Assembly: GCF_020463795.1 (NCBI RefSeq)
Contig: NZ_CP080025.1
Location: 2,049,001-2,113,000 of the forward strand
Length of the DNA stretch: 64,000 bases
Source: Echinicola marina
GTDB lineage: Bacteria > Bacteroidota > Bacteroidia > Cytophagales > Cyclobacteriaceae
Direction of reading: 5' to 3'
Position numbers and translations under genes: made by a program. Shown here in pieces: positions 5,896-30,040 of this stretch. Every line of letters starts with the position of its first letter. Positions within the stretch are counted from its first letter, which is position 1. The notes beneath the pieces were generated by a model, which saw only the letters and a list, made by a program, of their open reading frames with translations, was not told where the DNA came from and searched no databases.

Positions 5896-6054
5896 TTAGG
5901 GACCTCCAAATGTTGCAGTGGTTCTACATTCACGGGAAGCACTCATGGATTCCTGTTTTTTTGTCCCTTCCGCTGACTCTACCCTTTTTTTCCTGAGATT
6001 TTGTTGTTTACTTCTGTGAATCACAAAATCTTTTAAATCATTTTTTGTAAACAT
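5896..6054 (-). CDS. Short ORF, candidate modified-peptide precursor
   Basis: This 52-codon ATG-started frame lies upstream of and divergent from the histidine kinase gene. I read the product as MFTKNDLKDFVIHRSK, then a Lys/Arg-rich stretch, and a C-terminal part ending SASRECRTTATFGGP. The first half is charged and probably helical, like a RiPP leader. The last 15 residues hold one Cys (C43) and several Ser/Thr (S38, S40, T45, T46, T48), the residues a LanB enzyme could dehydrate. There is no signal peptide, unlike the two Cys-rich peptides further on. No family is recognised. It could be a LanB substrate or a chance frame, and only its position near LanB favours the former. Confidence 0.3.
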   Translation of the reverse strand: MFTKNDLKDFVIHRSKQQNLRKKRVESAEGTKKQESMSASRECRTTATFGGP

Positions 6055-6126
6055 ATTGAATTTGATTTGATACGACGGGAATCTATTTAAAGGGATTTTA
6101 ACAAAAAAAAATAATCTGTTAATGAG

Positions 6127-7200
6127 ATGTTTAAAGGGCTGAAATTACTTTTTGACCAGTTAAAAATAAAAAGAAGAATTCTCTCTACACATATAGTGGT
6201 ATGGGCGATATATTTTTTATATGATATTGTTTCCAGTTACTTTTTTGATGGTGCTATAAAATTGGATCTACTTCATATTTTGATCAACTGTATTACTATT
6301 ACCCTGATTTTTTATTGGTTTTCCCTAAGGTTTTTTCCTCTTATTAATAAAAAAAATTGGAGCAGGCTAATACTGGAAACCCCGTTTTTTTTATTGATTT
6401 ATTTATCCATTAAATTTATAGTCTTAAAAGGGATCCTTGTATCCTTTCCTTATGAGAACGGATACAAGTATATGATTGCCGAATCATGGAGAATGATCCA
6501 TTTTGGTCTGTATGGTTTTGGCTATTGGTATTTTGTTTCAACCATAGAAGCACAAATAAGACTGTTGAAAGTCGAAATACAAATGCTGAAAAACCAACTG
6601 TCGCCTCATTTTTTATTAAATACACTTACTGCTATTTATGGAGCTTTATCTTCAAAGCCCAATTCCTTTCAACCAACAATTATACTCCAATTGGCAACAC
6701 TTTTAAGATATGGACTAAAGTATAGAGAAGGAAATGTATCTCTATCAAAAGAGATTAAACACATTTCACGGTATCTTGAACTACAAAAATTCAGATATAA
6801 TGATTCACAGTTTGTTGATCTTATAAATGATATCCCAAAATACCAAGCTAAGGTTTTTCAGATTCCGGCTATGATCCTGGTTACATTGGTGGATAATATG
6901 TTCCAGCATGGTGTAATCAATCATCTTGATGCCCCTGGCCTTATTCATTTTTACACCATTCAAAAGAAATCATCGGAAGGAAGCTATGATTATCGTTTGG
7001 AGTTCAAAAATACCATCAAATCAAATAGAATATCAAAAGAAACATTGGGTATTGGTACGGAATATTCAAAAGAGATTCTAAAATATTATTATAAAGATAA
7101 GGTAAGTTTTCATAAAAATACAGATGCTGATACAAGCACCTTCATTTTTAGGATAAACATTAGACATGATGCAACAAATAAAGAAAATTGGAATAATTGA
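6127..7200 (+). CDS. LytS-type sensor histidine kinase
   Basis: This 357-aa membrane kinase has four predicted N-terminal membrane helices (within about 20-140), then the His_kinase (LytS/YehU) domain with its phospho-acceptor in QLSPHFLLNTL (His about 161) and the ATP-binding N box LVDNMFQHG (about 252-260). There is no separate ligand-binding domain, so the membrane part probably senses the signal. It overlaps the response regulator gene by 35 nt, making a classical pair. The pair is convergent with, and overlaps the end of, the LanB gene, which suggests it controls this cluster. The signal is unknown. Confidence 0.92.
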   Translation: MFKGLKLLFDQLKIKRRILSTHIVVWAIYFLYDIVSSYFFDGAIKLDLLHILINCITITLIFYWFSLRFFPLINKKNWSRLILETPFFLLIYLSIKFIVLKGILVSFPYENGYKYMIAESWRMIHFGLYGFGYWYFVSTIEAQIRLLKVEIQMLKNQLSPHFLLNTLTAIYGALSSKPNSFQPTIILQLATLLRYGLKYREGNVSLSKEIKHISRYLELQKFRYNDSQFVDLINDIPKYQAKVFQIPAMILVTLVDNMFQHGVINHLDAPGLIHFYTIQKKSSEGSYDYRLEFKNTIKSNRISKETLGIGTEYSKEILKYYYKDKVSFHKNTDADTSTFIFRINIRHDATNKENWNN

Positions 7201-7879
7201 TGATGATCCTTCATCATTGGATATTTTGGAGAATTATACCGATGGACTTCCTCATTTCGAATTGTCCTTTAGGATTCAGGATCCTCATTTGGTTAATGGG
7301 TTCCTTAAAAAAGAAAAGCCTGATATTTTGGTAATGGATGTTTGCATGCCCTCTTATAGTGGTCTGGCCTTGCTAGAAGATACACGTGAATTTCAAATTC
7401 CCACGATTTTAATAAGTGCGTTTAAGGAATATGCATTCGATAGTATAGAGTTAGAAGCAGTCGACTTTCTCTATAAGCCATTTTCTTTAAGCCGATATAG
7501 AAAGGCGCTTAATAAGAGTTTGAGGAGTTTAAAGAAGGCGGCAGAATCTACTAAACCTAAGGATCTGGTCGTTCAGGTCCAAAGGGGAAAGTACATCAAG
7601 GTAAAGATAAAATCAATTCTTTACCTCAAGGGTAGTCATAGTTATACGGAGATTATAACGAAAAAGTCCAAGCACCTTTCTTCCCTGCCTTTATCATTTT
7701 ATGAAGAGCATTTAAGGAATCATGGTTTTGTAAGGATTCATCGGTCGCATATTGTAAATGGTCATAAGGTATTGGGAAAGCAACCCGATGCCATTTTATT
7801 GGATAAAGGAGTTAAACTGCCAATAGGTTTACTATATAGGCAAAATGTGCAAGCTTTATTTTTTGATAATATTCCCTAA
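7166..7879 (+). CDS. LytTR-family response regulator
   Basis: This 237-aa protein has an N-terminal receiver domain (acidic pocket DDD at 12-14, phospho-acceptor Asp58 in ILVMDVCMP, conserved Lys in the LYKPF segment). A C-terminal LytTR DNA-binding domain follows (about 135-235, with FVRIHRSHIVN). It is the partner of the overlapping LytS kinase. Its last 24 nt overlap the end of the convergent LanB gene. LytTR regulators bind direct repeats upstream of target promoters and in other phyla often control bacteriocin genes. Control of the peptide operon here is an inference. Confidence 0.92.
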   Translation: MMQQIKKIGIIDDDPSSLDILENYTDGLPHFELSFRIQDPHLVNGFLKKEKPDILVMDVCMPSYSGLALLEDTREFQIPTILISAFKEYAFDSIELEAVDFLYKPFSLSRYRKALNKSLRSLKKAAESTKPKDLVVQVQRGKYIKVKIKSILYLKGSHSYTEIITKKSKHLSSLPLSFYEEHLRNHGFVRIHRSHIVNGHKVLGKQPDAILLDKGVKLPIGLLYRQNVQALFFDNIP

Positions 7880-10495
7880 CCTGTTTTTATAGACTAGAGC
7901 TCCGAGCTCTCTATAGAGCAAATAGTAAATCAGAGGCTCATAAGTATTGGCTTCATCAAGAAATGTTCTGTTGACCATCATATGTATATGGTGGAATAGT
8001 ACTTTTATGGATTTTTGATTTAGATTATAATCAGCTTGATTATAGTTAAGTAGATATGGTTTGGTGAATTCTTCTAGATAATTCATTTCTTCAATAGGTA
8101 TGGAAAGAGTTCTTATCACATCATAATAGTTTCTGTGCCATTTTGAAGTTTTTGATCCGTTGTTTTTTCGTTTTAAATATTGAAAGATTTCGTCATACTT
8201 ATTAAGCCCCTTTATTAATCTCAAGAAAATATGAACCAGTATTTTTAGTTTTGTTTCTTTTTTGGCAGCCATGATACCTTCTCTAGAAAAGAAATTGCTA
8301 CATAAAAATTCTGATTCAAGGTGATTTATTTTGTGGATGTGATCAATACTATCAGCATCGTATTTATGATTTTCAGGATAGTAGGGCATTGTTTTATAAT
8401 GGCTTACTTGGGATGATTCGGATAAAAGATAGAGCAATTCTTTTTTTAAATATTTGTTTTTAGATATAACCCTCAGTCGAATATGAAAAGCCTCATCTCT
8501 AAAGGCCAAATAATACCACTTCAATGACCTTTTTGCTCCTGAATGCTTTCTAATGAATGGAATAATAGTGCCTGTGAGAAATTCACTTGCATGTCTTGGA
8601 GTGATATAGACATAAATATTGATGACATTATTAAGGTATTCTCCGCTAATAGGATTGAGATAGAAGTTTTCTTGTCCCAAAGTAGATTTTGCTAGCGGTA
8701 GGTTGACCAAAAATTGAGGGTATAGAGGATTTCTATTTTGGTAAGTATAAGTTGAATTATATATCCATAAGCATTCTTTTAATCTAATTTTCGAGTATTT
8801 GTTGATCATAGCCAGTATCAATTCGATATCTCCTTGTTTAGTTGTATCTACTAAAAGTTCCTGGTCTTCTTCGCCAATAGTTATATATCTTGGTACATCT
8901 TTCTTGCTCAAAATATTTCTTATCGATTTCTGCTTGGCGTTTTCAGGCAAATCTTCTTTTTTTATCCACCATAGGGCCGGTTGGAGTACGATCTTTTTCC
9001 ATAAGATTCGGGGGCTAAATGAAAGTTGTTCACCGATATGCTCAAAATCCCTTGTTAAATACCGGGAGTATTGGTTGCCTATTTCCCAAAATAGTCGTCC
9101 TAATGGATGGCTAATATGACGGGGATGTATAGCGTGTTGGCTGATAGGAACAATTTTTTGTCTTGTCTTGATGTCACTGAGAATTACTTCATCCTCCCAT
9201 ATGGAAATACATATTCGATCTAAGGTGATTTCATTTTTTGAACTGGGCTGGGCCTGTAGATAATTAATGGTATAAGGAAGATAGTTTTTATGGAAAGATA
9301 AATTATTCACTACTTGAGTTTCCATTAATGGTAAATCTGCGTATATGATTTTTTCTGATCTACTTATGGGAGTTAGTTCAGAGTTTAAATACTTGCCTAT
9401 CACCTGATGATGACTAAATCGCCCGACAAGTGAATGATTTTTATTGGTACTACAGGAATCGATGATGATTTGGTTTTTGAACCCAAGCCTATACAAAACA
9501 CTTAGACTATAGTCACCAACTATTTCTTTTTTCTTAACTTCTGAATGGAGATCTATTTGTTTTAAAGACCTACTGTGTTTAAAAATTGATATTATACGAT
9601 TGTTCAATTTTAACGTAGGATGATCTATCTCATCTGTTCTTCTCACATCAGTTTTTAAATACTCCATAATTGGATCACATTGTTTGATAAGGACTTGAAT
9701 TGGGACAGTTTTATCATCATAATAGTGGAGAAATAATGATTTGAATTGCTGAAGTAGAAAGGATGTAGAAGGATCAAATATTGCACCCATTTCTTTCCTG
9801 ATGTTATCAAGTTCGTCTTTAATAGATTGATGTTGGCATACTATTGTAGAAGTATAAGAGTTTAAAAAGGAACTCTTTTCACGGTTTCTTAGATTGGTGA
9901 TGGATAAATAGGGGATGATCATGCCGGTGGCAATTATACCTTTCCAGACCTCGTGAATTTCTGATTCATCGATCTCAGGATCTATAAACCAAGATTGGAA
10001 GTCCTGAAATCCAATAACCTTATTAGAAATGCTGAACTTGTATACTTGATCGATTATTGGATTTCGTAAAACCCGGTATTCTTCCCACAGTTCACTGCCT
10101 TTATCAATGGACCAATAGATATAATGAGAGGAACTTTTCTTAATCGAGGCACTTAGGCAGTAGTGTTCATTTTTCCTACTCACCGAAATTGTATGTTTGA
10201 TAGTCTCTGTTTCAGCTTTGATTATCCAAGGTCCTTTATTGTCACTCCATTCTCCTAAACCGACACTTGCCCAATGCCCAAAGGGAATTGGACGGTATCG
10301 ACCCCGCTTAAGGTAATTATTAAAAGTTTGTTTTTCCTTACAGTTCAGTTCAGCATAAGTTTTATGCTTGATTTGTTCATAATATTCAGGAGAAGAATAT
10401 TGGATGGCCTTTAAGATGTTGGTATAATTCCTTTGAATCTCACCATCATCAGTAATATCAAAATCTAAGAGGGGAAGTCGATAAATAAAGTCCAT
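7856..10495 (-). CDS. LanB-type lantibiotic dehydratase with SpaB_C domain
   Basis: This 879-aa cytosolic enzyme has the class I LanB layout. The N-terminal glutamylation domain opens with YRLPLL (Arg6) and contains RGRYRPIPFG (64-73), matching the RxSxRPTPFG-type motif. The C-terminal SpaB_C/thiopeptide-type elimination domain lies at about 615-870, with YYLAFRDEAFHIRLRV matching the conserved H-x-R-x-R core. LanB enzymes use glutamyl-tRNA to dehydrate Ser/Thr in a leader-bearing peptide. Typical members have about 1000 residues, so this is a compact version, but both halves are present. It is on the opposite strand from the rest of the cluster and separated from it by an IS element. The substrate is uncertain. 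Confidence 0.88.
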   Translation of the reverse strand: MDFIYRLPLLDFDITDDGEIQRNYTNILKAIQYSSPEYYEQIKHKTYAELNCKEKQTFNNYLKRGRYRPIPFGHWASVGLGEWSDNKGPWIIKAETETIKHTISVSRKNEHYCLSASIKKSSSHYIYWSIDKGSELWEEYRVLRNPIIDQVYKFSISNKVIGFQDFQSWFIDPEIDESEIHEVWKGIIATGMIIPYLSITNLRNREKSSFLNSYTSTIVCQHQSIKDELDNIRKEMGAIFDPSTSFLLQQFKSLFLHYYDDKTVPIQVLIKQCDPIMEYLKTDVRRTDEIDHPTLKLNNRIISIFKHSRSLKQIDLHSEVKKKEIVGDYSLSVLYRLGFKNQIIIDSCSTNKNHSLVGRFSHHQVIGKYLNSELTPISRSEKIIYADLPLMETQVVNNLSFHKNYLPYTINYLQAQPSSKNEITLDRICISIWEDEVILSDIKTRQKIVPISQHAIHPRHISHPLGRLFWEIGNQYSRYLTRDFEHIGEQLSFSPRILWKKIVLQPALWWIKKEDLPENAKQKSIRNILSKKDVPRYITIGEEDQELLVDTTKQGDIELILAMINKYSKIRLKECLWIYNSTYTYQNRNPLYPQFLVNLPLAKSTLGQENFYLNPISGEYLNNVINIYVYITPRHASEFLTGTIIPFIRKHSGAKRSLKWYYLAFRDEAFHIRLRVISKNKYLKKELLYLLSESSQVSHYKTMPYYPENHKYDADSIDHIHKINHLESEFLCSNFFSREGIMAAKKETKLKILVHIFLRLIKGLNKYDEIFQYLKRKNNGSKTSKWHRNYYDVIRTLSIPIEEMNYLEEFTKPYLLNYNQADYNLNQKSIKVLFHHIHMMVNRTFLDEANTYEPLIYYLLYRELGALVYKNRLGNIIKK

Positions 10496-10502: not shown

Positions 10503-10673
10503 TTATTTTGGCTTCCTAAGTCTATTGATAAAAAATAGTCCATAAAACCCCATAAGTACGCTTTTCTTTAAACAAAGCTTTTGGAGGGTTGGACAAGTGT
10601 TTTCACAGCTTGAATGAATTATGTGAAATGGTCCTAAAGCAGAAGTGAAACCAATAATAACTCTTGGAATCAA
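10503..10673 (-). pseudogene. ATG-less open frame just upstream of LanB
   Basis: On the minus strand a stop-free frame of 81 codons (10748 to 10503) ends 7 bp before the LanB start. It has no ATG near its beginning; a TTG at 10673 would give 56 aa. The reading includes VIIGFTSALGPFHII, SSCENTCPTLQKLC and a basic tail ending RLRKPK, with three closely spaced Cys. No family is recognised. The placement is that of an operon gene before LanB, so it may be a small gene with a TTG start, a decayed precursor, or chance. Confidence 0.25.
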
Positions 10674-10809
10674 ATCCTTTTTTGAATAAACCTTTGAAAT
10701 ATGACGTTTTCTTTCGATAAGAAAGAAAATAATTCCATTTAATATGATTTAAATTTATTAATTATTGCTTTTTAAGTGATCGATATTGTATTTCATTTCG
10801 TTGAGAATA

Positions 10810-10833
10810 AAAATACCCCAATTGGGGTATTTT
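10810..10833. terminator. Perfect 24-bp palindrome, likely terminator
   Basis: AAAATACCCCAA pairs with TTGGGGTATTTT as a perfect inverted repeat flanked by A/T runs, so it could terminate transcription in both directions. It lies between the LanB region and the IS element and no intact gene now ends at it. It may be the leftover terminator of a gene removed when the IS arrived. Confidence 0.55.
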
Positions 10834-10879
10834 ATAACATGCTTATTTTTTTTTACTTGTGCTGTAGTCAATTTTTTTT

Positions 10880-11912
10880 ATGTGTATCCGTAAGAGTGCA
10901 CGTAATAAAATATGACAATACGTGTCATTAAATTTCAAGGTATCAGGATAGTTGTTTTCTTGCATAAAAACAAGAAAAGCTATGAACCTTATAGAATTTA
11001 CGGGCCATTTCCCAGATGAGGAAAGTTGTGAACAATACATCAAGAAATACCGTGAGAAAAGCGGTATACGGTGCAAAAACTGTGAGAAGATAACCCGACA
11101 CTATTGGTTTGCCAACGGCAGGTTTTTCGAATGCAGCAGTTGTCGGAGACGTTCTTCTCTTAAATCAGGGACGGTAATGGAAAACAGCAAGCTTCCGCTC
11201 CGTATCTGGCTATTGGCCATGCTGTTTATGTCGGCGACCAAGAAAGGGTTTTCCTGCCTTGAGCTCCAGCGGCAACTGGGGCTTAGCCGATATGAGACCA
11301 CTTTCCGTCTGATGCACAGGATACGGTCAGCCATGGGACAACGAGATGAGCTTTATATCCTCAGTGACATGATTGAATATGACGAGTGTTATATGGAAAC
11401 CGTACAGGAGAACCAGATCTTGGGTCAGCTTAAACGTGGAAAAGGCAGCCAGAAACAGACCGCAGTAGCGGTGGCGGCCGAATCGGTACCCTTGGAAGAC
11501 CTGGATTCCGGGCAGAAAACAAAGCGCTGTGGCTATTTCAAAATGAGGGTCATGGACAAAGTGGACTGCGAGAGTGTCAATGCCTTTATCCGGGCCAATA
11601 CCGTAGGGGATGTGGTACTGTTTACAGACAAGAACACGGCCTACTCGAAAATAGAGGAAGTGGTGGCCACCCATTTGGCCGTTCCATCGGGAAAGGAGTC
11701 CGTAAACGACACCTTAAAATGGGTACACAAAGCAATCAGTAATCTTAAAAGAACCCTGTTGGGGGTATATCACATGATAACTTATAAATATTTACAGAAC
11801 TATTTAAATGAGTTTGTTTACAGATTGAACCGAAGATATTTTGGCAAAGGACTCTTTGAAAGGCTCGTTATTGCGGGCACTTACCCATACGTGCAGTAAA
11901 ACGGATACACAT
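10880..11912 (+). mobile_element. IS1595-type insertion sequence
   Basis: This 1033-bp element is bounded by terminal inverted repeats: the left end from 10880 reads ATGTGTATCCGT.., the right end is its complement ending at 11912, and the similarity extends through TGCACGTA on both sides. One intact transposase gene fills it. An 8-bp AATTTTTT-like sequence follows the right end (11913-11920) and occurs two bases before the left end (10870-10877). It is a possible target duplication blurred by the T run. The element separates LanB from the LytTR/sulfotransferase/peptide operon. Confidence 0.85.
10982..11899 (+). CDS. IS1595 family transposase (ISXO2-like)
   Basis: This 305-aa transposase begins at the ATG at 10982 (MNLIEFTGHF). 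The N-terminus has a zinc ribbon with CKNC (about 26-29) and CSSC (about 46-49) pairs, then a helix-turn-helix-like segment (LQRQLGLSRYETTFRLMHRIR). The ISXO2-like catalytic domain follows, with Asp in IEYDECYME, Asp in VVLFTDKNTAY, and the late WVHKAISNLKRTLLGVYH segment. The full length is present, so it is likely functional. The gene fills nearly all of the element between the two terminal repeats. Confidence 0.92.
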   Translation: MNLIEFTGHFPDEESCEQYIKKYREKSGIRCKNCEKITRHYWFANGRFFECSSCRRRSSLKSGTVMENSKLPLRIWLLAMLFMSATKKGFSCLELQRQLGLSRYETTFRLMHRIRSAMGQRDELYILSDMIEYDECYMETVQENQILGQLKRGKGSQKQTAVAVAAESVPLEDLDSGQKTKRCGYFKMRVMDKVDCESVNAFIRANTVGDVVLFTDKNTAYSKIEEVVATHLAVPSGKESVNDTLKWVHKAISNLKRTLLGVYHMITYKYLQNYLNEFVYRLNRRYFGKGLFERLVIAGTYPYVQ

Positions 11913-11922
11913 AATTTTTTTA

Positions 11923-12285
11923 ATGAAATATAGAATCATGGAATACCTTATTTTAAAAAATGAACTAGAAATAGCGAAAATTCCCATAGATGCTATTCTT
12001 TCATTGGAAGTAAATGATTATTTATTGACTTGCCGTACGGTTTGGAGCAGGGACTTTTGCTGTAGTAAAGCATTGAGTGAAATAGAGGGGCGGCTTCCAA
12101 GTCATTTTTTGAGGATCAATAGAAATACCATAGTTAACCTTAATAAAGTGCAGTTGGTCCATTTCAAAGAAAGGACCATCCGTATGAATGATCAATTGAT
12201 CTATCAAATGTCCCACAGAAAAGTGAAAGTAATAAGAAAAGCAATCAATGAATATGAATCGAATAGGCTCAATTTTAGCGAATAA
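11923..12285 (+). CDS. Stand-alone LytTR DNA-binding protein
   Basis: This 120-aa protein consists of a LytTR domain only (about 6-105, with HFLRINRNTIVNLNKV matching the DNA-contacting region). There is no receiver domain. The first ATG is 10 bp after the right end of the IS, and a second (11938) is also possible. The IS may therefore have removed its native promoter or an N-terminal part, although the LytTR domain itself looks complete. It overlaps the sulfotransferase gene by 38 nt, so it is the first gene of that operon. It is a plausible regulator of the peptide promoters. Transcription may now start within or near the IS. Confidence 0.82.
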   Translation: MKYRIMEYLILKNELEIAKIPIDAILSLEVNDYLLTCRTVWSRDFCCSKALSEIEGRLPSHFLRINRNTIVNLNKVQLVHFKERTIRMNDQLIYQMSHRKVKVIRKAINEYESNRLNFSE

Positions 12286-13174
12286 GAATTTGCTTCCAGA
12301 GGATGGTCTGGTAATTTTTGGGGAAGCGCGTAGTGGTACCACTTGGCTGATGGAATTGTTAAGTCATATACCCAATGCGATTATAAATTGGGAACCATTA
12401 CATATTGAAAAAGGAGTGGTGCCAAAAGAATTTAATTGGGGAGATCGTCCTTATATTCCATCAGATGATAGGTATAAGGAATATGGAGATTTAATCAATG
12501 ATATACTGTCCCTTCGAAAATATTCCGAATGGACCATTGGAAAGAATTCATGGGAAGGTATAGTAAATGGAAAGGTCGTTTTGACCAAGTTTGTCAGGGC
12601 CAATTTATTGATTCCTTGGATTTGTCAAAATATTAAATTCAGACATAAGCCCATATTGCTGTTGCGACATCCCATTGACACCTGCTTCTCACAGCTTAAG
12701 GCATTTGGAAGGGGAACAAACGACTATGGTGAAATTCCTTCAAGTATCCATAATGTCCGTTTTTTGCAAAAAAAGGAAATACTGAAAAATGCAAAGAATG
12801 ATTTGGAGTACAAAATCATTCTTTGGTGTATCAACAATATGCCCCTGCTAGCAAACCCTGGTTTAAAGGATTTAGTAGAAGTTATCTATTATGAAGATTT
12901 AATCATAGACCCCCGGAAGCAAATCCGTTCTATTTTAGAGAGAGTTATTCCTAACGAAAATATTGCAGAAGTAATGTCATTGATTCCCTTTAGGGCTGCA
13001 AGCGAAACCAGTTTGAATGGACTAGACAGCAGTCCTTTAATGCAGCTTTACAAAAATATGGATGCCATTGATTATAGGCAAAAAGAGCGGATCCAAATTA
13101 TTTTTGATCACTTTGGACTAGAGATGTATAATGCCTTTAGTCCATATAGAGTCTCTAGTAAAATTAAATTATAA
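12248..13174 (+). CDS. PAPS-dependent sulfotransferase
   Basis: This 308-aa cytosolic enzyme of the sulfotransferase family transfers sulfate from PAPS. The 5'-phosphosulfate-binding loop is FGEARSGTTW (24-33), and the 3'-phosphate-binding region is LLLRHPIDTCFSQL (137-150, Arg140 and Ser148). The acceptor could be a sugar, a tyrosine or another hydroxyl and cannot be told from sequence. It is followed 127 bp later by the first Cys-rich peptide gene, and an APS kinase that could supply PAPS lies 7 kb downstream. The last 89 codons are duplicated at 14801-15069. Confidence 0.87.
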   Translation: MNMNRIGSILANKNLLPEDGLVIFGEARSGTTWLMELLSHIPNAIINWEPLHIEKGVVPKEFNWGDRPYIPSDDRYKEYGDLINDILSLRKYSEWTIGKNSWEGIVNGKVVLTKFVRANLLIPWICQNIKFRHKPILLLRHPIDTCFSQLKAFGRGTNDYGEIPSSIHNVRFLQKKEILKNAKNDLEYKIILWCINNMPLLANPGLKDLVEVIYYEDLIIDPRKQIRSILERVIPNENIAEVMSLIPFRAASETSLNGLDSSPLMQLYKNMDAIDYRQKERIQIIFDHFGLEMYNAFSPYRVSSKIKL

Positions 13175-13301
13175 TAATACTTACATTCACAAGTTTAGGT
13201 ATGACGTTTACGGGCTATCTAGGTACACTTTCCCATTTCCATAGGATTATTTAATAGGTTAGGATCGATAAATAAATTATTTAATCAAAACCATTTTTAA
13301 A

Positions 13302-13538
13302 ATGAAAAAGAAAAGAACATTATCAAAAGTAGTAATGGCTGCTAGTGTTGCAGCTATGGGAGTGGGAGTTTTTCAAACGTTTGATGCGGAAGCACAAACT
13401 ACAGGTGGAGGAGCAGGGTATATGTGTTGCGCATTTGATGGCCCTGGTTGTACTGATGAAACTGGACAGTATTTTTCTGAAGATAAAAAAATCGATCGAG
13501 ATTTCCAGGGAGATTCTTGTGGTAATCATGAGGAATAA
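13302..13538 (+). CDS. Secreted Cys-rich peptide 1, NVEALA-like
   Basis: This 78-aa peptide begins with MKKKRTLSKVVMAASVAAMG, a signal-like leader, and has a probable signal peptidase I site at AEA|Q (after A31). The predicted mature part starts QTTGGG and carries four Cys (C42, C43, C50, C73), Tyr40 and Tyr57 and many acidic residues. The layout (basic start, hydrophobic stretch, xxEA motif, Cys-rich acidic tail) resembles NVEALA peptides of Bacteroidota, which have no settled function. Tyr57 sits among acidic residues (DETGQYFSED), a context that could suit tyrosine sulfation. It is followed by a hairpin and a propeller lipoprotein gene. Modification is inferred from neighbours only. Confidence 0.8.
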   Translation: MKKKRTLSKVVMAASVAAMGVGVFQTFDAEAQTTGGGAGYMCCAFDGPGCTDETGQYFSEDKKIDRDFQGDSCGNHEE

Positions 13539-13541
13539 TAT

Positions 13542-13568
13542 TTTGGGACGAATTACTTTCGTCCCAAA
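13542..13568 (+). terminator. Hairpin between peptide 1 and propeller genes
   Basis: TTTGGGACGAA pairs perfectly with TTCGTCCCAAA across a 5-nt loop, just after the peptide stop and before the propeller start at 13598. It probably acts as a partial terminator or an RNA end-protecting stem, giving more peptide than propeller mRNA. Confidence 0.65.
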
Positions 13569-13597
13569 TTTCACGAATTTCATAACTTAAATCCTAA

Positions 13598-15069: not shown

Positions 15070-15196
15070 TAATACTTGCACTCACGAGTTGAGGAGTGAC
15101 ATTCACGGGCTATTTAGATACACTTTCCCATTTCCATAGGATTATTTAATAGGTTAGAACCGATAAATAAATTATTTAATCAAAACCATTTTTAAA

Positions 15197-15436: not shown

Positions 15437-15468
15437 GAAAAAAGGGGGAAACCCCTTTTTTCTTATTC
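15431..15468 (+). terminator. Strong hairpin between peptide 2 and propeller genes
   Basis: A 17-bp perfect stem with a GAAA loop begins inside the peptide stop region. Its 3' arm contains CCCCTTTTTT, so it looks like an intrinsic terminator. The sequence is unrelated to the hairpin at the same place in unit 1. Readthrough would be needed to express the propeller, LanC and downstream genes. Confidence 0.75.
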
Positions 15469-16633: not shown

Positions 16634-16644
16634 ATTTAATTTTA

Positions 16645-22336: not shown

Positions 22337-22339
22337 CCC

Positions 22340-25300
22340 ATGGTCAGGTTTTTATTATCAAGGCCCATAGCGGTCACCATGGTTTTTCTGGCCCTGATGG
22401 TCTTTAGCCTAATTGGCTTCACCAAGCTGCCCATATCCTTATTGCCGCCCATAGATGTGCCGCAGATTGTGGTAAAGGTGAATTATCCCAATGCTTCTCC
22501 TGAGGCCATTGAGCAGAATGTGCTGAGCAGGGTGCGGGAAGGACTGATCACCCTCAACGAGCTTGAAGATATGGACAGTAAGGCAGGCAGTGAAACTGGT
22601 ACGCTGAGGCTCCAATTTGCCTATGGCACTTCCATGGAGCTGGCCTATATTGAAGTGAATGAAAAAATAGACCGCCTCACCAATAGCCTGCCCCAAGAGC
22701 TTGCCCACCCCCAGGTCATCCGCATCAATACCAATGACATTCCCATGGTCCGCTTACAGGTGATTCCAAAGGAAGGAACAGATTATGCCGCAGTAACCAA
22801 ATTGGCCGAAAATGTCCTAAAAAAGCGCATAGAGCAACTGCAGGGAATATCCCTGGTAGATATCAATGGCAAGCAGGAAAGGGTCATTACCGTGGAACCC
22901 AATAAGGCGGTCTTGGCTGGCTTGGGCATGACCGAGCAAAATGTCATCAATGCGATACGATCTGGAAACAGCGAACCTTCGGGAATAAGCGTAAAGGATG
23001 GGCAATATCGTTATTTTTTGCGCTTGGCGACCCGGGTGGATACCCCTGAAGATATAGCAGGGCTTCCCGTAATGGGACCTGGGGGGAATATGGTGGAGTT
23101 GAATAAAGTAGCCAATGTCCAATACCAAATGGGAAGTCCCATGGGCTACCACCTATATGGAGAGCAGGAAGGCTTGGTGATCACCATACACAAGCAGGCG
23201 GCAGCCAAGATGAATGAGCTGATGGAAAAGGTCAGCGAGTCGGTGGAATTGTTCAAAAAGGATTATCCGCAGGTGGATTTTGCCCTCAGCCAGGACCAAT
23301 CCGCCCTGCTCAATGCGGGGATCAATAACCTGCAGACCAGTTTGCTCTTTGGAGGGATTTTCGCCTTTGGGGTATTATTTATCTTTATGGGCAATTATAA
23401 GATGCCCTTGATTATTGGTGTCAGCCTGCCCACTTCCCTACTGATCAGTTTTCTGGTATTTTATGCTTTTGGGATTTCCATCAATGTGATTTCCCTAAGT
23501 GGCCTGGCTTTGGGCTTGGGCATGTTGATCGATAATGCCATTATTGTTTTGGACAATATCACCCGCAAAAGACAGGAGGGCTTGCCACTTTTTGATGCCT
23601 GCGTCAAGGGGGTAAATGAAGTCATGTCGGCTTTGATCTCTTCTGTGCTGACCACTTTGGCGGTCTTTGTGCCCTTGGTTTTTCTGAGTGGTATTTCCGG
23701 GGCCTTGTTCTTTGATCAGGCAGTGTCGGTGGCAGCCATTCTATTTGTCTCATTGCTGGTGGCCTTTATATTATTGCCTTTACTTTACCGACTTTTCTTT
23801 GCCAAAAAGCAATGGGACAGCAACCAAGAGGATAGCCGCTTTTTTAAATGGGTCTTGGCTTTATATAAAAGTGGCTACCAAAGGCTGATGACCCAAAGGC
23901 GCTTGAGTTTGATTTTATTATTGGCCCTTATTCCACTGTTTTTGATGATCGGTCTGGCATTGCCCAAAGAAGGATTGCCTCCGATCGGGAAAAAAGATGT
24001 CTTGATCGAACTGGATTGGAATGAGCCCATAGCGGTAAAGCAGAACCTTGAGCGGGTAAAGGGAATGATGGCATTGCTGGGAAATAGCTTTGAACATGCG
24101 GAGGCAGATGTGGGAGTCCGTCAGTTTTTGCTTTTTGATGGGGAAAACTCGGTACAAGAGGCCAGCATTTATATTGACTTCAGGGATCAGGCAAGCAAAG
24201 AAAAATATACGGCACAATTGGAAAAACAGCTGAGGGCGCAATATCCACAGGCCAGCATCAAGCTGATGGATGCTCCCAATGCCTTTGACCAGCTTTTTGC
24301 TTCCAATAGGCCCTACTATGAAATGCGCTGGAAGGACCTGAAGGACAAAAAGCCAGTTGATGCAGCGACCATGGAACCTTGGTTGGAGGATTTGCCGGTG
24401 AAACAGTGGAAGAAAGGTCCCGGCTTGCAGGAAGAATCTGCTGTGGTCTTTCACTTGGATTTGGAAAAACTGGCCTTGTACCAAATTGAGCTCAATGAGA
24501 TAGCGGGGCAGATTGAAAGGCTTTTCGGCGCTTATACCATTGATGAGATCAAACAGTTCAGCGAGGTGACCCCGATCCGCTTATTGGAAAATGATGCCGA
24601 TTATAGGGGGATTTTAGCAAGCAATTACCTGCGCTCCAAGGAGGGGCAGCCTTATGCCCTGGCCAATTTTATCCAAGTGGGATATGAGGACCATTATAAG
24701 TATGTGACGGCGGATAAGACCGGGATTTACCAATCTGTGGAAATTACGGCGCCCAATCCACAAAACAGGGAGAGGGAGCTTAAAAACTGGGGATTGGATA
24801 GAAATCTCAGTGTGTCTTTTTCCGGACAATATTTCAAAGATCAGGAAAATCTTCAACAATTGATTGGGATTTTGGGCGTAGCGGTACTGCTGCTTTATTT
24901 TATCCTTGCAGCCCAGTTTGAAAGTTTTGTACAACCGCTGATTGTGATCTTTACCCTGCCGCTGGGTATTGGAGGGGCCTTGCTAGTGCTCTGGTTGACC
25001 GGGACTTCCCTAAATGTGATGTCGGCCATTGGTCTGGTGGTGATGCTGGGGATTATGGTCAATGATGCCATTTTGAAGATCGACACCATTAACAGGTTGA
25101 GGGTGAAATATGCGGAGCAGGAAAGGGATTTGACGGACAGGGAGATTTTGGAACAGGCCCTTTTTAAGGCTGGGGAAATCAGGCTGAAACCCATTTTGAT
25201 GACCTCGATGACCACTATTTTGGCTTTGCTGCCCGTGGTATTCAGTTCAGGCCTGGGAGCGGACCTGCAAAGACCTTTGGTGTTCAGTGTGATGGGCGGC

Positions 25301-25411
25301 TTGACGATCGGGACGCTGACCGCATTGTATTTTGTGCCTTTGATGTATTGGGCGTTGAGTAGAAAAAAGAATAAAGAGGAAAGAAGAAAGATTGGAGTAG
25401 TTAGTAGCTAG
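22340..25411 (+). CDS. RND efflux pump, first permease
   Basis: This 1023-aa inner-membrane pump of the AcrB/MexF superfamily uses proton motive force for export. It has the usual 12 helices: TM1 about 10-30, a docking/porter loop, then TM2-6 with SLSGLALGLGMLIDNAIIVLDN (TM4, Asp of the proton relay). A second loop and TM7-12 follow, with IGLVVMLGIMVNDAILKID (TM10). It is paired with the adjacent adaptor gene. In this context it may export the peptides or their modified product, or clear a toxic intermediate. The substrate is not deducible. Confidence 0.95.
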   Translation: MVRFLLSRPIAVTMVFLALMVFSLIGFTKLPISLLPPIDVPQIVVKVNYPNASPEAIEQNVLSRVREGLITLNELEDMDSKAGSETGTLRLQFAYGTSMELAYIEVNEKIDRLTNSLPQELAHPQVIRINTNDIPMVRLQVIPKEGTDYAAVTKLAENVLKKRIEQLQGISLVDINGKQERVITVEPNKAVLAGLGMTEQNVINAIRSGNSEPSGISVKDGQYRYFLRLATRVDTPEDIAGLPVMGPGGNMVELNKVANVQYQMGSPMGYHLYGEQEGLVITIHKQAAAKMNELMEKVSESVELFKKDYPQVDFALSQDQSALLNAGINNLQTSLLFGGIFAFGVLFIFMGNYKMPLIIGVSLPTSLLISFLVFYAFGISINVISLSGLALGLGMLIDNAIIVLDNITRKRQEGLPLFDACVKGVNEVMSALISSVLTTLAVFVPLVFLSGISGALFFDQAVSVAAILFVSLLVAFILLPLLYRLFFAKKQWDSNQEDSRFFKWVLALYKSGYQRLMTQRRLSLILLLALIPLFLMIGLALPKEGLPPIGKKDVLIELDWNEPIAVKQNLERVKGMMALLGNSFEHAEADVGVRQFLLFDGENSVQEASIYIDFRDQASKEKYTAQLEKQLRAQYPQASIKLMDAPNAFDQLFASNRPYYEMRWKDLKDKKPVDAATMEPWLEDLPVKQWKKGPGLQEESAVVFHLDLEKLALYQIELNEIAGQIERLFGAYTIDEIKQFSEVTPIRLLENDADYRGILASNYLRSKEGQPYALANFIQVGYEDHYKYVTADKTGIYQSVEITAPNPQNRERELKNWGLDRNLSVSFSGQYFKDQENLQQLIGILGVAVLLLYFILAAQFESFVQPLIVIFTLPLGIGGALLVLWLTGTSLNVMSAIGLVVMLGIMVNDAILKIDTINRLRVKYAEQERDLTDREILEQALFKAGEIRLKPILMTSMTTILALLPVVFSSGLGADLQRPLVFSVMGGLTIGTLTALYFVPLMYWALSRKKNKEERRKIGVVSS

Positions 25412-25715
25412 TATCAAGTACAAAGTATGGAGTATAAAGTAGGAATCCTGTTGACTGTATTGCAGGAATTATCTTGACTCAAACCCCAAAGGGGGGTAAA
25501 CATACTTAATGGTGAAGCATCATCAGGCCTAGCGACCCTGAAGGGGTCGAATAAAATACGGGTAGAGATGTACGAGGTGGAAATATGGAGTATGAAGAAC
25601 GGAGCTATTAGAAATGTTGTATCAAGTCTCTGCCTTGGTACTGGTTAAATTGAGTCTCTGACTAAAAATATTGTTTTCGTTGTGTCGAAAATGGTATTAA
25701 ATAATAGATAAGCCT
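25412..25715. repeat. Spacer with small palindromes
   Basis: There is no gene. It contains an AGTACAAAGTATGGAG-type low-complexity spacer, a CAAACCCCAAAGGGGGG palindrome-like piece (about 25480-25497) and a GACCCTGAAGGGGTCG hairpin (25534-25549). These are common dispersed repeats of this genome. Confidence 0.5.
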
Positions 25716-26783
25716 ATGTTTTTTTTATGGAGGGTTAGCCTTGTTTTAGCTGCTTTAGTAGTAATGGGTTGTTCGGAGGAACCTAAAAATATCTTGCCGA
25801 CTATTCCAGTGTCAGAAAAGGCTGATCCAGCCCTTGCATTGAATGAGATTGCAAAATCGGTCAAAAGGATTCAATTGGAGACCACAAAGGCGGCATTGTT
25901 GGGTTATATAATGAAAGTAAAACAATATAATGAAAAGCTTTATATAGCTGATAGAGATAAAGTCTTGGTTTTTGATTTGGAAGGAAAGTTTTTATACCAA
26001 ATCGGAAGCTATGGGGAAGGACCCGGTGAGTATATGATAGTTAATACATTTGCCATGGATCCGCATAATGGAAATGTTTACATAGCTTCAAATTATAGGA
26101 TATTGGTTTATTCTGCGGATGCTGAATTATTGATGGAAAAAAAGTTTTTCCATTATATATACGGTTTGGAATTTACTGATGGTAAACTATATGAATTTTA
26201 TAATTCTCACGGAAACGAGGTGAAAGAGGGCTATGTCAATTATTCATTTCTCCATGAATTTAGCCCTCAATTGGAATTGTTGGACAGTATTACACTAAAG
26301 ACAGTTAATTTAAAAAAACACATAGTGAGTGTTTACAATTACAAGCATTTTATATCAAAAACTAAAGAGGGTACCTACCTATATTACCCCGTGCTAGTTG
26401 CTGAAAATATTAAAAGGGACACCCTGTATCAGTTTAAGGAGGATAGGTTAGTTCCTTTTTTAAAATTGGATTTTGAAAAGCCACAGTCTTCAGATGTACT
26501 AAAAATGAGGAAGGCAGTGAATATCTATAATATTAATAATTCAAATTCTTACGTGATATGTGAATATGTACAAGAAAGGGAAAATCGGTTTTTTGTTTTT
26601 AATAAGAAGGATTCTATCAGTTATAATCTAAAAGTGGGACCACTGGATGATCAAGGGGAGCCAGTCGTGCTTAGGCCCCTAGACTTAGAAAAAGACAAGT
26701 TTTACTATGCGAAAGCTTCAGAATTCATGGATAAAGAAACCGAAGAATCCAACCCTATAGTTGGTATTGTTGAATTGAAATAA
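25716..26783 (+). CDS. Six-bladed beta-propeller lipoprotein between RND genes
   Basis: This 355-aa lipoprotein (VVMGCSEE, Cys about 19) is related to that of 33314-34381. It has the N-terminal block LNEIAKSVKRIQLETTKAALLG, KFLYQIGSYGEGPGEYM and a C-terminal block with VVLRPLDLEKDKFYYAKASEFMD. The 6-bladed propeller is expected to bind a ligand or partner at the envelope. It lies between the two RND pump genes, unlike the unit 1 and 2 propellers that follow peptide genes. It may be the pump-associated recognition protein. Confidence 0.8.
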   Translation: MFFLWRVSLVLAALVVMGCSEEPKNILPTIPVSEKADPALALNEIAKSVKRIQLETTKAALLGYIMKVKQYNEKLYIADRDKVLVFDLEGKFLYQIGSYGEGPGEYMIVNTFAMDPHNGNVYIASNYRILVYSADAELLMEKKFFHYIYGLEFTDGKLYEFYNSHGNEVKEGYVNYSFLHEFSPQLELLDSITLKTVNLKKHIVSVYNYKHFISKTKEGTYLYYPVLVAENIKRDTLYQFKEDRLVPFLKLDFEKPQSSDVLKMRKAVNIYNINNSNSYVICEYVQERENRFFVFNKKDSISYNLKVGPLDDQGEPVVLRPLDLEKDKFYYAKASEFMDKETEESNPIVGIVELK

Positions 26784-26938
26784 TAATTGTTGAAAGGAGC
26801 CAACGGCTCAAGTTTGCTTGGTCCATCAGCACAGCTGAATGGACAACATGACTTGAGGCTCAATACTCAATACTCACATCTCAAGACTAATCTAAAGTCT
26901 AAAATCTTATGTCTAACATCTAGTGTCTAAAACAAAAT
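26784..26938. repeat. Low-complexity spacer
   Basis: The spacer contains a dense run of TCTAAAGTCTAAAATCT-type repeats (about 26850-26930) immediately before the TTG start of the second RND gene. No promoter is recognised. Confidence 0.4.
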
Positions 26939-29900
26939 TTGAGTCCATTTAGAATTGTCATATCGTTTTTTGTGCTGGCCATCATAGGCTTTGCCTTGGT
27001 GCCCAGGCTGACCGTGGAGCTGAATCCCAGAGAACAGCAGCCGGTGCTCAGTATTTCCTATTCCGTGCGGGATGCTTCCCCAGAGCTGGTGGAAAAGCTG
27101 GGGACGGCACCTTTGGAGGGGCTTTTTAGCCAGTTGTCCGATCTTAAGAAAATCGAATCGGTTTCCCGCTATAATGGCGGCTCTGTGACTCTGCGCTTCG
27201 ATAAGCACACGGACATGGAATTCAAGAAGTTTGAGGTGACCTCCCTGATCAGGCAGGTGTATCCATCCTTGGATGCCAAGGTCAGCTTTCCGTTGGTTTA
27301 CCAGTCTGCCCAGCGTAATGATGAACCGCCTATTCTGCAATACAGCATCAATGCACCCTTTGCGGCCTTTGAAATCAAAAAGGTCACTGAGGATATCTTG
27401 AAGTCCGTCCTTAACCGCTTTGATGAGGTGGAGGAAATCCAGGTTTATGGGGCCAGGGACCTGCAGCTTTTTGTGACCTACGATATACAAAAACTCCAGG
27501 CTTTTGGCATAAGCAGGGGAATGCTCAATTCAGTGCTGCGCAGTGCTTTTGGAACAAGTTTTCCCGGCATGGCCCTGAACCATCAAGGGGAAGCCCTTTT
27601 TATTCAGGTGGACCGCTCCTTGGTCGAAATGGAGCAGTTGGAAATGCTTAGGATTACTAATCGCGATGGAAAGGATATTTACCTCAGGGACATTGCCCAA
27701 CTGACCTTGGAGGAAGCGGAACCCAATCGCTATTACCGGATCAATGGCAATAACTCCGTGACCATGAGCATTACCAGTAGAGAAGGGGTGAACAAGGTGG
27801 TTTTGGCACAAAGGCTAAAGGAGGCCATCGAGGAAGCTTCTGAGCTGTTGCCTGCAGGATATGATGTGCGCTTGGAGCAGGATGATACCGAATACCTGTC
27901 CAAGGAACTGAACAAAATCTATAAAAGATCAGGGCTGTCCATCCTGATTTTGGTGGTCTTTATCTTTTTGATCAACCGGAACTGGCGTTACCTGACCGTA
28001 TTATTTTTGGGCATCCTGGTCAACCTGAGTGCTACGGGCATTATCCTATATACTTTAGGGACCCATCTGCACCTTTATTCGATTGCAGGATTGACCATCT
28101 CTTTTGGATTGATCGTGGACAATGCCATTATCATGATCGATCACCTGCACAAACACAAAAATAGAAAGGTCTTTTTGGCCCTTTTGGCGGCTTCCCTGAC
28201 CACCATTGCCGCCCTGCTTATGGTATTTTTATTGCCGGAAGAAGACCAGAAAAACCTGACGGACTTTGCGGTGGTGGTAGCCGTGATGCTGGCAGTGTCG
28301 CTACTGGTGGCACTCATGTTTACCCCTGCCATGTACCAATTACTATTTGGGGAAAAAGTAGGCCAGAAAAGAAGCATCACTGTCCCCAAGTTGAGGAGAC
28401 GGGTGAGGTGGTTTGGAAGGTACCGGAAGCTCATTGGATTTGCCGCTCACTACCGAAAGACCTTTGTCATATTCTTGGTCTTGCTTTTTGGCTTGCCCAT
28501 ATTTTACCTGCCGGCCAAATGGGAAGGGCAGGATTGGTACAATAAGGTCATTGGCAGCACGGTATATCAAGAGGACATCAGGCCCTATGTGGATAAGGCT
28601 TTGGGTGGTTCCTTGAGGATGTTTGTCCGAGGGGTATTTGAGAAGTCTGGCTACAGGGAAGCTGCCCAGACAAGGCTATATGTAAATGTGCGCCTGCCCT
28701 TTGGGAATACCCTCGATCAAATGGACTTTATCATTCGGGAGTTTGAGGAGTTTTTAAAAGGGGTAGAAGGGGTAGACAAGTTTGTGAGCAATGTGTCCTC
28801 GGGACAATATGCTTCCATTACCATTACCTTTAAGGAAGCTTATGAAAATTCAGCCTTGCCTTATCAGCTGAAAGGAAGACTGTCAGTAAAAGCAACAGAC
28901 TGGAGCGGTGCAAGATGGAGTATCTATGGAGTGGGCCAAGGTTTTAGTGCCGGCCCCGGCGGAGAAGGGATTCCATCCTTTACCGTGATGATGAAGGGCT
29001 ATAACTATGATGAACTGGCAAGGCAGTCCGAAGTACTGGCCGAAAAGCTCATGCAGCACAAAAGGATCCAAGAAGTCAATACCAATGAGCGCCTGTCTTA
29101 CGGGGAAAGGAGTTCTGAGGAGTTTGTACTTCGATTTGATCAGAAGAAGCTCGCCCTGCAGGGTACCAATCAATATGAGGTGATGACGGCCCTGAGTGAT
29201 AGGTCCAAACCCACTGGGGCAAGTCTTTATTTGAACCTAGAGGATAAGAATTATGGTGTGGTCGTCAGGGAAAAGCATGCAGAAGATTTCTCCCGTTTTG
29301 ACTTGGAAGAAACCACCTTGATCAGTTCGGAGGACAAAATGCTTAAAGTGTCCAGTTTAGGGACGCTGGTAAAGGAAACTACGACCAACTCCCTGCACAA
29401 GGAAGACCGACAATATATCCGGAGGGTGGCCTTTGAGTATATGGGCTCAAGGAAGTTTGGCCGTGAATACCTGGATGAAGTGCTGGAAGAGATGAAGGCA
29501 AGTATGCCCATTGGGTATTCTGCTGAGACTTCTTCCTATGGCTGGGGCTATGGAAAGACCCAAAGACAGTATACACTGTTGCTGGTCTTGATGGTGGCGA
29601 TTTTCTTTATCTGCGGAGTCTTATTTGAAAATCTCAAACAGCCTTTTTATATCATTGCGGTGATCCCTATTGCCTTTATTGGCTTGTTCTTGATCTTTTC
29701 GCTATTTGATTTTTATTTCGATCAGGGCGGCTATGCTGCTTTTGTAATGCTGGGGGGCTTGGCGGTGAATGCCGCCATTTTCATCGTCAATGACCTGAAC
29801 AATAGAGAAAATGGAAAGTATAACCGAAATGTATTGAAGTCAGTGGCAGGTAAATCCATTCCCATTCTATTGACGGTGCTTTCCACCTGTTTTGGTTTGG

Positions 29901-30040
29901 TTCCATTTATTATGGAGGGGCAAAACGAGATATTCTGGTTTTCGCTTGCCATAGGTACTATTGGAGGGCTGGTGTTCAGTATGCTAGGGGTATTTGTGGC
30001 CTTGCCGGTGTTTTTGTGGAGGAAAGAGAGTAGGAAGTAG
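26939..30040 (+). CDS. RND efflux pump, second permease without its own adaptor
   Basis: This 1033-aa pump starts at TTG (26939), since no earlier or near ATG gives a complete TM1. It has TM1 (about 5-22), porter loops, TM4 with SIAGLTISFGLIVDNAIIMIDH carrying the relay Asp, and a C-terminal set of helices with GGLAVNAAIFIVNDLN. It has no adaptor gene beside it, so it probably shares the one at 21248, as in tandem two-pump RND systems. The pumps differ enough that this is not a recent duplication. It ends before the sulfatase region. Confidence 0.93.
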   Translation: MSPFRIVISFFVLAIIGFALVPRLTVELNPREQQPVLSISYSVRDASPELVEKLGTAPLEGLFSQLSDLKKIESVSRYNGGSVTLRFDKHTDMEFKKFEVTSLIRQVYPSLDAKVSFPLVYQSAQRNDEPPILQYSINAPFAAFEIKKVTEDILKSVLNRFDEVEEIQVYGARDLQLFVTYDIQKLQAFGISRGMLNSVLRSAFGTSFPGMALNHQGEALFIQVDRSLVEMEQLEMLRITNRDGKDIYLRDIAQLTLEEAEPNRYYRINGNNSVTMSITSREGVNKVVLAQRLKEAIEEASELLPAGYDVRLEQDDTEYLSKELNKIYKRSGLSILILVVFIFLINRNWRYLTVLFLGILVNLSATGIILYTLGTHLHLYSIAGLTISFGLIVDNAIIMIDHLHKHKNRKVFLALLAASLTTIAALLMVFLLPEEDQKNLTDFAVVVAVMLAVSLLVALMFTPAMYQLLFGEKVGQKRSITVPKLRRRVRWFGRYRKLIGFAAHYRKTFVIFLVLLFGLPIFYLPAKWEGQDWYNKVIGSTVYQEDIRPYVDKALGGSLRMFVRGVFEKSGYREAAQTRLYVNVRLPFGNTLDQMDFIIREFEEFLKGVEGVDKFVSNVSSGQYASITITFKEAYENSALPYQLKGRLSVKATDWSGARWSIYGVGQGFSAGPGGEGIPSFTVMMKGYNYDELARQSEVLAEKLMQHKRIQEVNTNERLSYGERSSEEFVLRFDQKKLALQGTNQYEVMTALSDRSKPTGASLYLNLEDKNYGVVVREKHAEDFSRFDLEETTLISSEDKMLKVSSLGTLVKETTTNSLHKEDRQYIRRVAFEYMGSRKFGREYLDEVLEEMKASMPIGYSAETSSYGWGYGKTQRQYTLLLVLMVAIFFICGVLFENLKQPFYIIAVIPIAFIGLFLIFSLFDFYFDQGGYAAFVMLGGLAVNAAIFIVNDLNNRENGKYNRNVLKSVAGKSIPILLTVLSTCFGLVPFIMEGQNEIFWFSLAIGTIGGLVFSMLGVFVALPVFLWRKESRK

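Follow-up and report, generated by a model that had tools for sequence, protein, structure and literature searches.

A candidate sulfated-peptide cassette with a zinc-less LanC-like protein in Echinicola and its relatives among the Cyclobacteriaceae

To our knowledge, sulfation of bacterial peptides is known mainly from RaxX. A further layout in Bacteroidota, that of the NVEALA pairs, is a short Sec-leader peptide encoded beside a TolB-like propeller lipoprotein; no paper containing the word NVEALA was found in the open-access literature. In the RaxX-RaxST system of Xanthomonas, the peptide carries a double-glycine leader and is released by type I secretion, the genes form a 5-kb raxX-raxSTAB cluster and those supplying 3'-phosphoadenosine-5'-phosphosulfate (PAPS) are called housekeeping (PMC6637879). 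LanC-like proteins with neither a zinc triad nor a LanB partner are described for the Bacteroidales clusters BGC3-BGC5 of ribosomally synthesized and post-translationally modified peptides, and the word sulfotransferase is absent from the main text of that paper (PMC10352776). Class III LanKC cyclase domains are likewise described as devoid of zinc residues (PMC7268733). The locus considered here lies in a stretch of 64,000 nucleotides (the window) from Echinicola marina (Cytophagales, Cyclobacteriaceae), positions 2049001-2113000 of the single 5.69-Mb contig of its chromosome (G000). It comprises a cassette at 11923-20275 that encodes two Cys-rich peptides, a sulfotransferase, a LanC-like protein and two glycosyltransferases, with a kinase of adenosine-5'-phosphosulfate (APS) adjoining it. 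A search by titles and abstract openings, with subscription journals and preprints outside it, found no description of peptide, LanC-like protein and sulfotransferase in combination.

From the genes alone, we predict with a probability of about one half that the product of the cassette together with the APS kinase is a secreted peptide rich in disulfides, probably bearing sulfate and possibly sugar as well. A solo LytTR protein would control expression of the cassette, and the peptide would be made with the Sec-type leader and AxA site that can be read in its sequence. The cytosolic sulfotransferase would use PAPS produced from APS by the local kinase, and the sulfate would go to a core residue such as Tyr or to a sugar added by the two glycosyltransferases. 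The LanC-like protein, which has lost its zinc ligands, may serve as a peptide-handling scaffold or as a non-lanthionine enzyme. The peptide would then leave by Sec, with cleavage by signal peptidase near DAEA and formation of disulfides outside, and the paired propeller lipoprotein may bind it as receptor, carrier or immunity protein. Within a cassette type that is more widespread in the Cyclobacteriaceae, that of the window would be the branch with Sec leaders, the other branch combining double-glycine leaders with a C39-type ABC exporter (C39-ABC). This prediction is supported by the LytTR-sulfotransferase-peptide slot kept in Echinicola, by other sulfotransferase types at the LanC-like locus, by the split between leaders and exporters and by the purifying selection acting on the sulfotransferase.

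All cassette genes are on the plus strand. The solo LytTR DNA-binding protein of 120 aa (11923-12285; PF04397, 51 bits) opens the cassette, and its gene overlaps that of the PAPS-type sulfotransferase of 308 aa (12248-13174; PF13469, 39.3 bits for a cut-off of 27). Peptide 1 (78 aa, 13302-13538), with a Sec-type leader ending in DAEA and a core starting with TTGGGAGYMCC, pairs with a TolB-like six-bladed propeller lipoprotein (13598-14692; PF15869, 49.3 bits; lipobox-like IFSC). A truncated duplicate of the sulfotransferase C-terminus (14689-15069; no Pfam match) separates this pair from peptide 2 (79 aa, 15197-15436), which has the same leader and a diverged core, and from its own TolB-like propeller lipoprotein (15485-16633, start probably 15503; PF15869, 88.7 bits), for which a sequence search of the PDB gave a single match at E 0.075. 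The second pair accompanies a partial duplication, 12896-13195 being repeated at 14791-15090 with 94% DNA identity, that left this truncated tail. There follow the LanC-like protein of 357 aa (16645-17718; PF05147, E 2e-4, 20.5 bits, below the 23.2 cut-off), a GT7-type glycosyltransferase of 259 aa (17989-18768; PF02709, 24.5 bits, cut-off 23), a GT4 glycosyltransferase (18893-20275), nearest in NCBIfam to TIGR04157 (glyco_rSAM_CFB; 273 bits, below the 400 cut-off), and the APS kinase (20463-21002; PF01583, 173.6 bits; TIGR00455, 201 bits, above cut-off). No radical SAM maturase was seen among the window proteins scanned, which cover part of its open reading frames. Every gene named in an earlier sequence-only reading of this DNA, including the two Cys-rich exported-type peptides each with a propeller, and the two LytTR proteins with a LytS kinase (LytS-type kinase PF06580, LytTR response regulator and solo LytTR), was recovered at its coordinates from open reading frames and Pfam or NCBIfam scans.

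The arrangement in which LytTR directly precedes the sulfotransferase, with peptides downstream, is common to six Echinicola genomes, the window's and five others, of which G003 has an extra gene between sulfotransferase and peptide. The closest named relative is E. salinicaeni P51 (G001), with a sulfotransferase 89% identical. The gene is open in G000, G001, G003, G006 and G010, broken in G005 and absent from five of the eleven Echinicola. It is under purifying selection, with a ratio of nonsynonymous to synonymous rates (dN/dS) of 0.10-0.31 over all ten pairs of five genomes, those without APS kinase included. In 15 aligned proteins, R28-S29-G30, T32-W33-L34-M35-E36, R140 and S148 are invariant and E49 is present in at least 90%. 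A prospective set of 390 genomes (A4) contained nine, the window's own included, with matches at E <= 1e-20. It provided no fresh test, because four of the five strong matches outside the own genome (E < 1e-90) were known before, the new one being G570, and all five belong to the same family.

The AlphaFold model of the sulfotransferase has a predicted local distance difference test score (pLDDT) of 85, and all 50 listed PDB structure matches are sulfotransferases. The top three by E-value are SULT1A1 variants, and the best query TM-score among the 50 is that of tick tyrosylprotein sulfotransferase 8w5z (0.52, root-mean-square deviation 6.7), the others reaching 0.34-0.45. R28 and E49 are 21 residues apart, as are the Arg and the catalytic Glu of human TPST2. 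This structural likeness and spacing weakly favour a peptide Tyr as the modelled enzyme's substrate. Searched against the PDB by sequence, the sulfotransferase profile gave a best E of only 0.65.

In an alignment with the two true LanCs of G000, nothing in the window LanC-like protein or in five relatives corresponds to their Cys and Cys-His motifs, and 20 aligned LanC-like proteins share no invariant or near-invariant Cys or His column. Searching the PDB with a six-member profile retrieved LanKC, LicM2 and NisC (best E 1e-6), and a single-sequence structure model was unusable (mean pLDDT 33.7). Judging by these alignments, the protein is probably not a classical LanC cyclase, and loss of the ligands is by itself no proof of inactivity since class III LanKC domains lack zinc residues too. 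Among the Echinicola stretches read, full-length LanC-like and both glycosyltransferase genes are found in G000 and G010 only, and the LanC-like gene is truncated in G001, G003 and G006. Co-occurrence in some relatives bears out the sequence-only reading for peptide, propeller, sulfotransferase, LanC-like and glycosyltransferase genes, which are together in G010, of the same genus, and, with another sulfotransferase, in G261, of another genus, but not for LanB, for RND pumps (resistance-nodulation-division) as a specific part or for APS kinase as a general component. In G003 (L036), peptide, propeller and fragments of the LanC-like N-terminus recur as units, in a pattern that resembles duplication of the cassette followed by erosion.

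Beyond Echinicola, the LanC-like profile matched in 35 of the 295 genomes of the family, true LanCs being among the weaker matches, and relatives at E < 1e-40 occupy 29 places in 19 non-Echinicola genomes. Flanks were compared in 23 LanC-like stretches of 7.7-39 kb, two from Echinicola (that of the window beginning at 10001) and 21 from elsewhere, to which the absences given for them apply; G311 and the truncated genes of G001, G003 and G006 are outside this set. With one label per open reading frame, they contained a propeller in 16, GT7 in 15, another glycosyltransferase in 13, C39-ABC in 13, a double-glycine peptide in 11, a VKOR/C39 protein in 11, LytTR in nine, a sulfotransferase in eight (seven, plus a G246 fusion added by hand; that of G122 is a remnant), a Sec-leader peptide in six and an APS kinase in one. 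Peptide counts run low because overlapping reverse frames masked some. Two G019 stretches hold the LanC-like gene and none of the other counted families.

Sulfotransferases sit beside the LanC-like family in two other genera (g103 and g37), in six of the 21 non-Echinicola stretches, one as a remnant and one fused. In G246 (L145:10453-12204), a Sulfotransfer_4 domain is fused to the LanC-like protein in one open frame of 583 aa; the same two are adjacent in G286, as a pair split by a stop, and G122 has the remnant. G261 encodes a 299-aa Sulfotransfer_1/3 protein in the slot LytTR-sulfotransferase-peptide-propeller, and G335 and G291 have Sulfotransfer_3 proteins of about 500 aa with a glycosyltransferase-like part beside the LanC-like gene, with a further Sulfotransfer_3 in G291. 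The sulfotransferases of G261, G335 and G291 have no BLASTP match to the Echinicola one at 1e-3. Outside Echinicola, five Sulfotransfer_3 genes lie within 5 kb of a LanC-like gene against 0.13 expected (P 2e-7), a figure that is optimistic, as the uniform-placement null ignores clustering of sulfotransferases with glycosyltransferases. This test used 51 of 55 Sulfotransfer_3 rows (the remaining four being further pieces of frames already included), 45 of them non-Echinicola, and the 29 LanC-like places, zinc-ligand absence having been checked for the aligned ones only. The five near pairs include sister genomes (G261/G311 and G291/G335) and represent three lineages at most; G261 and G311 score below the Pfam cut-off in the genome scan, and the G261 protein passes when scanned alone. 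The idea of a sulfated peptide gains support from these other genera, and the links to LanB, to RND pumps and to APS kinase in general fall away.

Both window peptides have a basic start, a hydrophobic stretch and an AxA site followed by four Cys. Leaders are conserved in relatives and cores vary. Between peptides 1 and 2, dN is 0.065 and dS 0.50 in the leader, and 0.244 and 1.20 in the core; this difference is no sign of positive selection, because dS is also higher in the core. The core of peptide 1 aligns with that of another peptide in G261, from the same stretch as its sulfotransferase slot, with a score of 141 (at most 47 in 1000 shuffles). In the same way, a G010 core, under a short leader, matches a G001 core, under a longer NVEALA-resembling leader, with a score of 122 (at most 67 in 1000 shuffles). 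Cores are thus able to pass from one leader to another. No Pfam or NCBIfam model matched the window peptides at E <= 0.01, which reduces the term NVEALA-like of the sequence-only reading to a resemblance. As for export, C39-ABC is present in none of six Sec-leader stretches and in nine of the ten stretches in which all peptides are of the double-glycine type (P 0.0009 by Fisher's test, uncorrected for sister genomes). There are thus two kinds of cassette, one combining double-glycine leaders with a C39-ABC exporter and one having Sec leaders and no such exporter.

At least one Tyr occurs in all nine peptides compared from sulfotransferase stretches but also in five of six others, so Tyr content does not discriminate. 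Median Asp+Glu is 8 in the former (n=9) and 4 in the latter (n=6; P 0.012 by Mann-Whitney test, rising to 0.047 when the third G000 peptide joins the latter), and this difference was not used as evidence because it is confounded by relatedness. A third Sec-led, Cys-rich peptide lies at 0.63 Mb in G000 (L185:1363-1644); a lipoprotein-like gene follows (223-1350) and no modifying enzyme was recognised within 3.1 kb.

The APS kinase of the window is the only full-length copy in a scan of G000, its P-loop is intact and it aligns with human PAPSS1. Among the six Echinicola with the sulfotransferase slot, an intact kinase is found in G000 and G010 only, that of G010 in a polysaccharide-looking cluster (L083); it is broken in G003, a remnant in G006 and missing in G001 and G005. 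APS itself can be made in all eleven Echinicola, since CysD is present in each. An intact kinase tracks the full set of LanC-like and glycosyltransferase genes (2/2 against 0/4, Fisher P 0.067), a parallel that is suggestive in a small sample.

Several observations weigh against the predicted sulfated peptide, beginning with the optimistic null mentioned above. Sulfation in the cytosol of a Sec substrate prior to export would be unusual, and Tyr is not a fixed position of the core. The sulfotransferase is open in G001, G003 and G006, which have no intact APS kinase, and its purifying selection in such genomes cannot be reconciled with a strict need for PAPS unless the loss is recent. A local APS kinase occurs in one of the 23 LanC-like stretches, the window alone; in the genome at large, the kinase is present in all seven non-Echinicola genomes with a sulfotransferase near the LanC-like gene (G122, G246, G261, G286, G291, G311 and G335) but also in seven of twelve without (P 0.11). 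As to the local PAPS supply of the sequence-only reading, an APS kinase does adjoin the cassette in the window, but it is not supported as a general component, and a local APS kinase was rejected as defining feature. Furthermore, 15 of the 21 non-Echinicola stretches have no sulfotransferase, including three with Sec leaders (G028, G160 and G281). Finally, the closest homologue outside Echinicola, 40% identical and from Bizionia arctica, shows neither a LytTR nor a peptide match in its vicinity, and both it and homologues at 26-34% lie among polysaccharide-looking genes, read by eye and not family-scanned.

Because these homologues sit in such surroundings, a sugar substrate is plausible. They also favour an unlikely alternative in which sulfotransferase, GT7, GT4 and LanC-like protein build a sulfated surface glycan or glycolipid, the peptide/propeller pairs being independent neighbours in a hotspot. 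The similar-looking cluster around the G010 APS kinase points the same way, as do peptide and propeller genes in places where these enzymes are missing, such as the pair immediately before HlyD in G004. However, no polymerase, flippase or capsule exporter is among the cassette genes, LanC-like and GT7 genes accompany double-glycine peptides and C39-ABC exporters in other genera, and a sulfotransferase is placed between LytTR and peptide in two genera.

It is rather improbable that the peptide is exported unmodified save for its disulfides and acts as a toxin or a signal, the propeller being its immunity protein or receptor, while the enzyme genes decay or hitch-hike. The truncated LanC-like genes of G001, G003 and G006, the broken sulfotransferase of G005, the retention of peptide and propeller only in G004, the greater variability of cores than leaders and the finding of one core under two leader types would all suit such a scheme. 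On the contrary, LanC-like and GT7 genes are constrained between G000 and G010 (dN/dS 0.09 and 0.11, with saturated dS), and two further genera have sulfotransferases at the LanC-like locus.

The single pathway of the sequence-only reading, in which this LanB and the LanC-like protein would act on a peptide that is then sulfated and exported by the RND pumps, has in its favour that all genes lie within 24 kb, but it is very improbable and largely refuted, as the LanB trio and the RND operon are each conserved without the cassette, an insertion sequence (IS) and an alignment break separate LanB from it, the LanC-like zinc ligands are absent and G000 has, at another place, a locus that combines LanB and LanC with a precursor of the class I lanthipeptides. 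The cluster goes beyond a chance neighbourhood, given the gene order shared with five other Echinicola, yet it consists of three modules, namely LytS-LytR-LanB, HlyD-RND-RND and the cassette proper at 11923-20275.

The first module, at 6127-10495, comprises LytS and LytR on the plus strand and LanB (PF04738 and PF14028) on the minus strand, and was judged outside the cassette. With no LanC or exporter beside it, this LanB is an orphan that has a two-component system to itself. Any LanB match occurs in 11 of 118 genomes, the window's own included, and LanB of the window type is near full length in G008 (32%), G009 (30%) and G050 (24%), where LytS-LytR-LanB is each time accompanied by counterparts of window genes 3350-5680 and not by the sulfotransferase cassette. 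No LanB match was reported in the five other Echinicola bearing the sulfotransferase, nor in the other 22 LanC-like stretches; in the window itself, LanB is 6 kb from the LanC-like gene. LanB was rejected as cassette partner on these grounds and on the break and IS lying between them. The class I lanthipeptide locus of G000 (L042, G000:C1:4240000-4259999) has a precursor (NF038153), a LanB match and two LanCs with Cys and Cys-His motifs, and by eye also a C39-type ABC transporter and an HlyD-type protein.

The second module (21248-30040, plus strand) encodes HlyD, RND, a DUF5128 propeller and a second RND pump (RND2), both pumps being ACR_tran proteins, and was judged not to be specific to the cassette. 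Ten of the eleven Echinicola genomes have RND2 (E <= 1e-150), four of them without the sulfotransferase, and the operon was rejected as a dedicated exporter. Lipoprotein-like genes precede HlyD in G007, G008 and G009, propeller-similar in the latter two, and these genomes have no peptide match. G000 has a second HlyD-RND copy at 4.27-4.29 Mb, its RND2 being 91% identical; another Cys-rich peptide/propeller pair lies about 11 kb upstream of it, with a 99% identical IS1595 transposase between (copy and pair together, L166:3586-4963 and 15678-19832).

The sequence-only reading had also spoken of one AT-rich cluster, a description that did not hold, since gene composition is uneven, an IS lies inside and alignment to E. 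salinicaeni DNA breaks at about 10.5 and 21.2 kb. Most genes at 6-16.6 kb have a G+C content of 0.31-0.37, and the APS kinase has 0.36. Values rise to 0.40 in peptide 1, 0.40-0.41 in LanC-like and the two glycosyltransferases, 0.46 in the IS and 0.47-0.49 in HlyD/RND. The alignment extends leftward to 10510 only, 15 bases from LanB. The IS1595-family insertion (10878-11914, plus strand; PF12762, inverted ends) has an empty site in G001 and is outside the system. A 324-bp border stretch (10510-10833) has a second occurrence in E. salinicaeni (L033:16473-16796), and 264 bp of it are also upstream of HlyD in G009 (L165:15767-16030). This repeat of 264-324 bp, at 94-95% identity near peptide/propeller loci in Echinicola, is a possible substrate for rearrangement. 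To the right of the RND operon, 30384-36733 carries, besides a sulfatase (PF00884), four genes for secreted or lipoprotein-like products, one with DUF5128 and the other three having no Pfam match at E <= 0.001. PADLOC gave no match to anti-phage defence among five proteins scanned.

A broader view can be offered tentatively, namely that the Cyclobacteriaceae possess a modular family of sulfated secreted peptides in which at least four sulfotransferase types were separately recruited, once by fusion, to one zinc-less LanC-like/glycosyltransferase cassette, while cores changed their leader type and the cassette switched between export by Sec and by C39-ABC. Instead of making thioethers, the LanC-like fold would then be a docking platform for a sulfotransferase. 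If the prediction of a sulfated peptide is right, it adds a tailoring chemistry to Bacteroidota peptides and possibly an unrecognised class of sulfated bacterial peptides. It would also suggest a role for LanC-like proteins without LanB and zinc triad, with the propeller lipoproteins as testable partners, and the open fusion in G246 makes the link directly accessible in vitro.

Among known systems, the cassette differs from class I lanthipeptide systems in that its zinc ligands are gone, LanB is not linked and no lanthipeptide leader model of NCBIfam matches its peptides, NF038153 being found for the peptide at L042. The layout of Sec-leader peptide and propeller resembles the NVEALA pairs, except that the window peptides have no family match and modifying enzymes are adjacent. 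Regarding the TIGR04149/TIGR04157 cassettes of Bacteroidota in NCBIfam, the window GT4 is nearest to TIGR04157, as given above, and double-glycine peptides of two relatives match TIGR04149 weakly (19.7 and 20.7 of 25 bits, below cut-off); unlike these cassettes, the window has Sec-type peptides and no C39-ABC exporter in its cassette. With BGC3-BGC5, the window cassette shares a zinc-less LanC-like protein without LanB, a glycosyltransferase in the case of BGC3 and the absence of C39-ABC in BGC3 and BGC5, whereas those clusters have radical SAM and pseudo-radical SAM enzymes with GG-type leaders in place of a sulfotransferase, an APS kinase and Sec-type leaders (PMC10352776). Compared with RaxX-RaxST, the window belongs to a different phylum and has a Sec-type leader with no double-glycine leader or type I exporter, but both systems join a small secreted-type peptide to an adjacent sulfotransferase with PAPS motifs and to genes for PAPS supply (PMC6637879).

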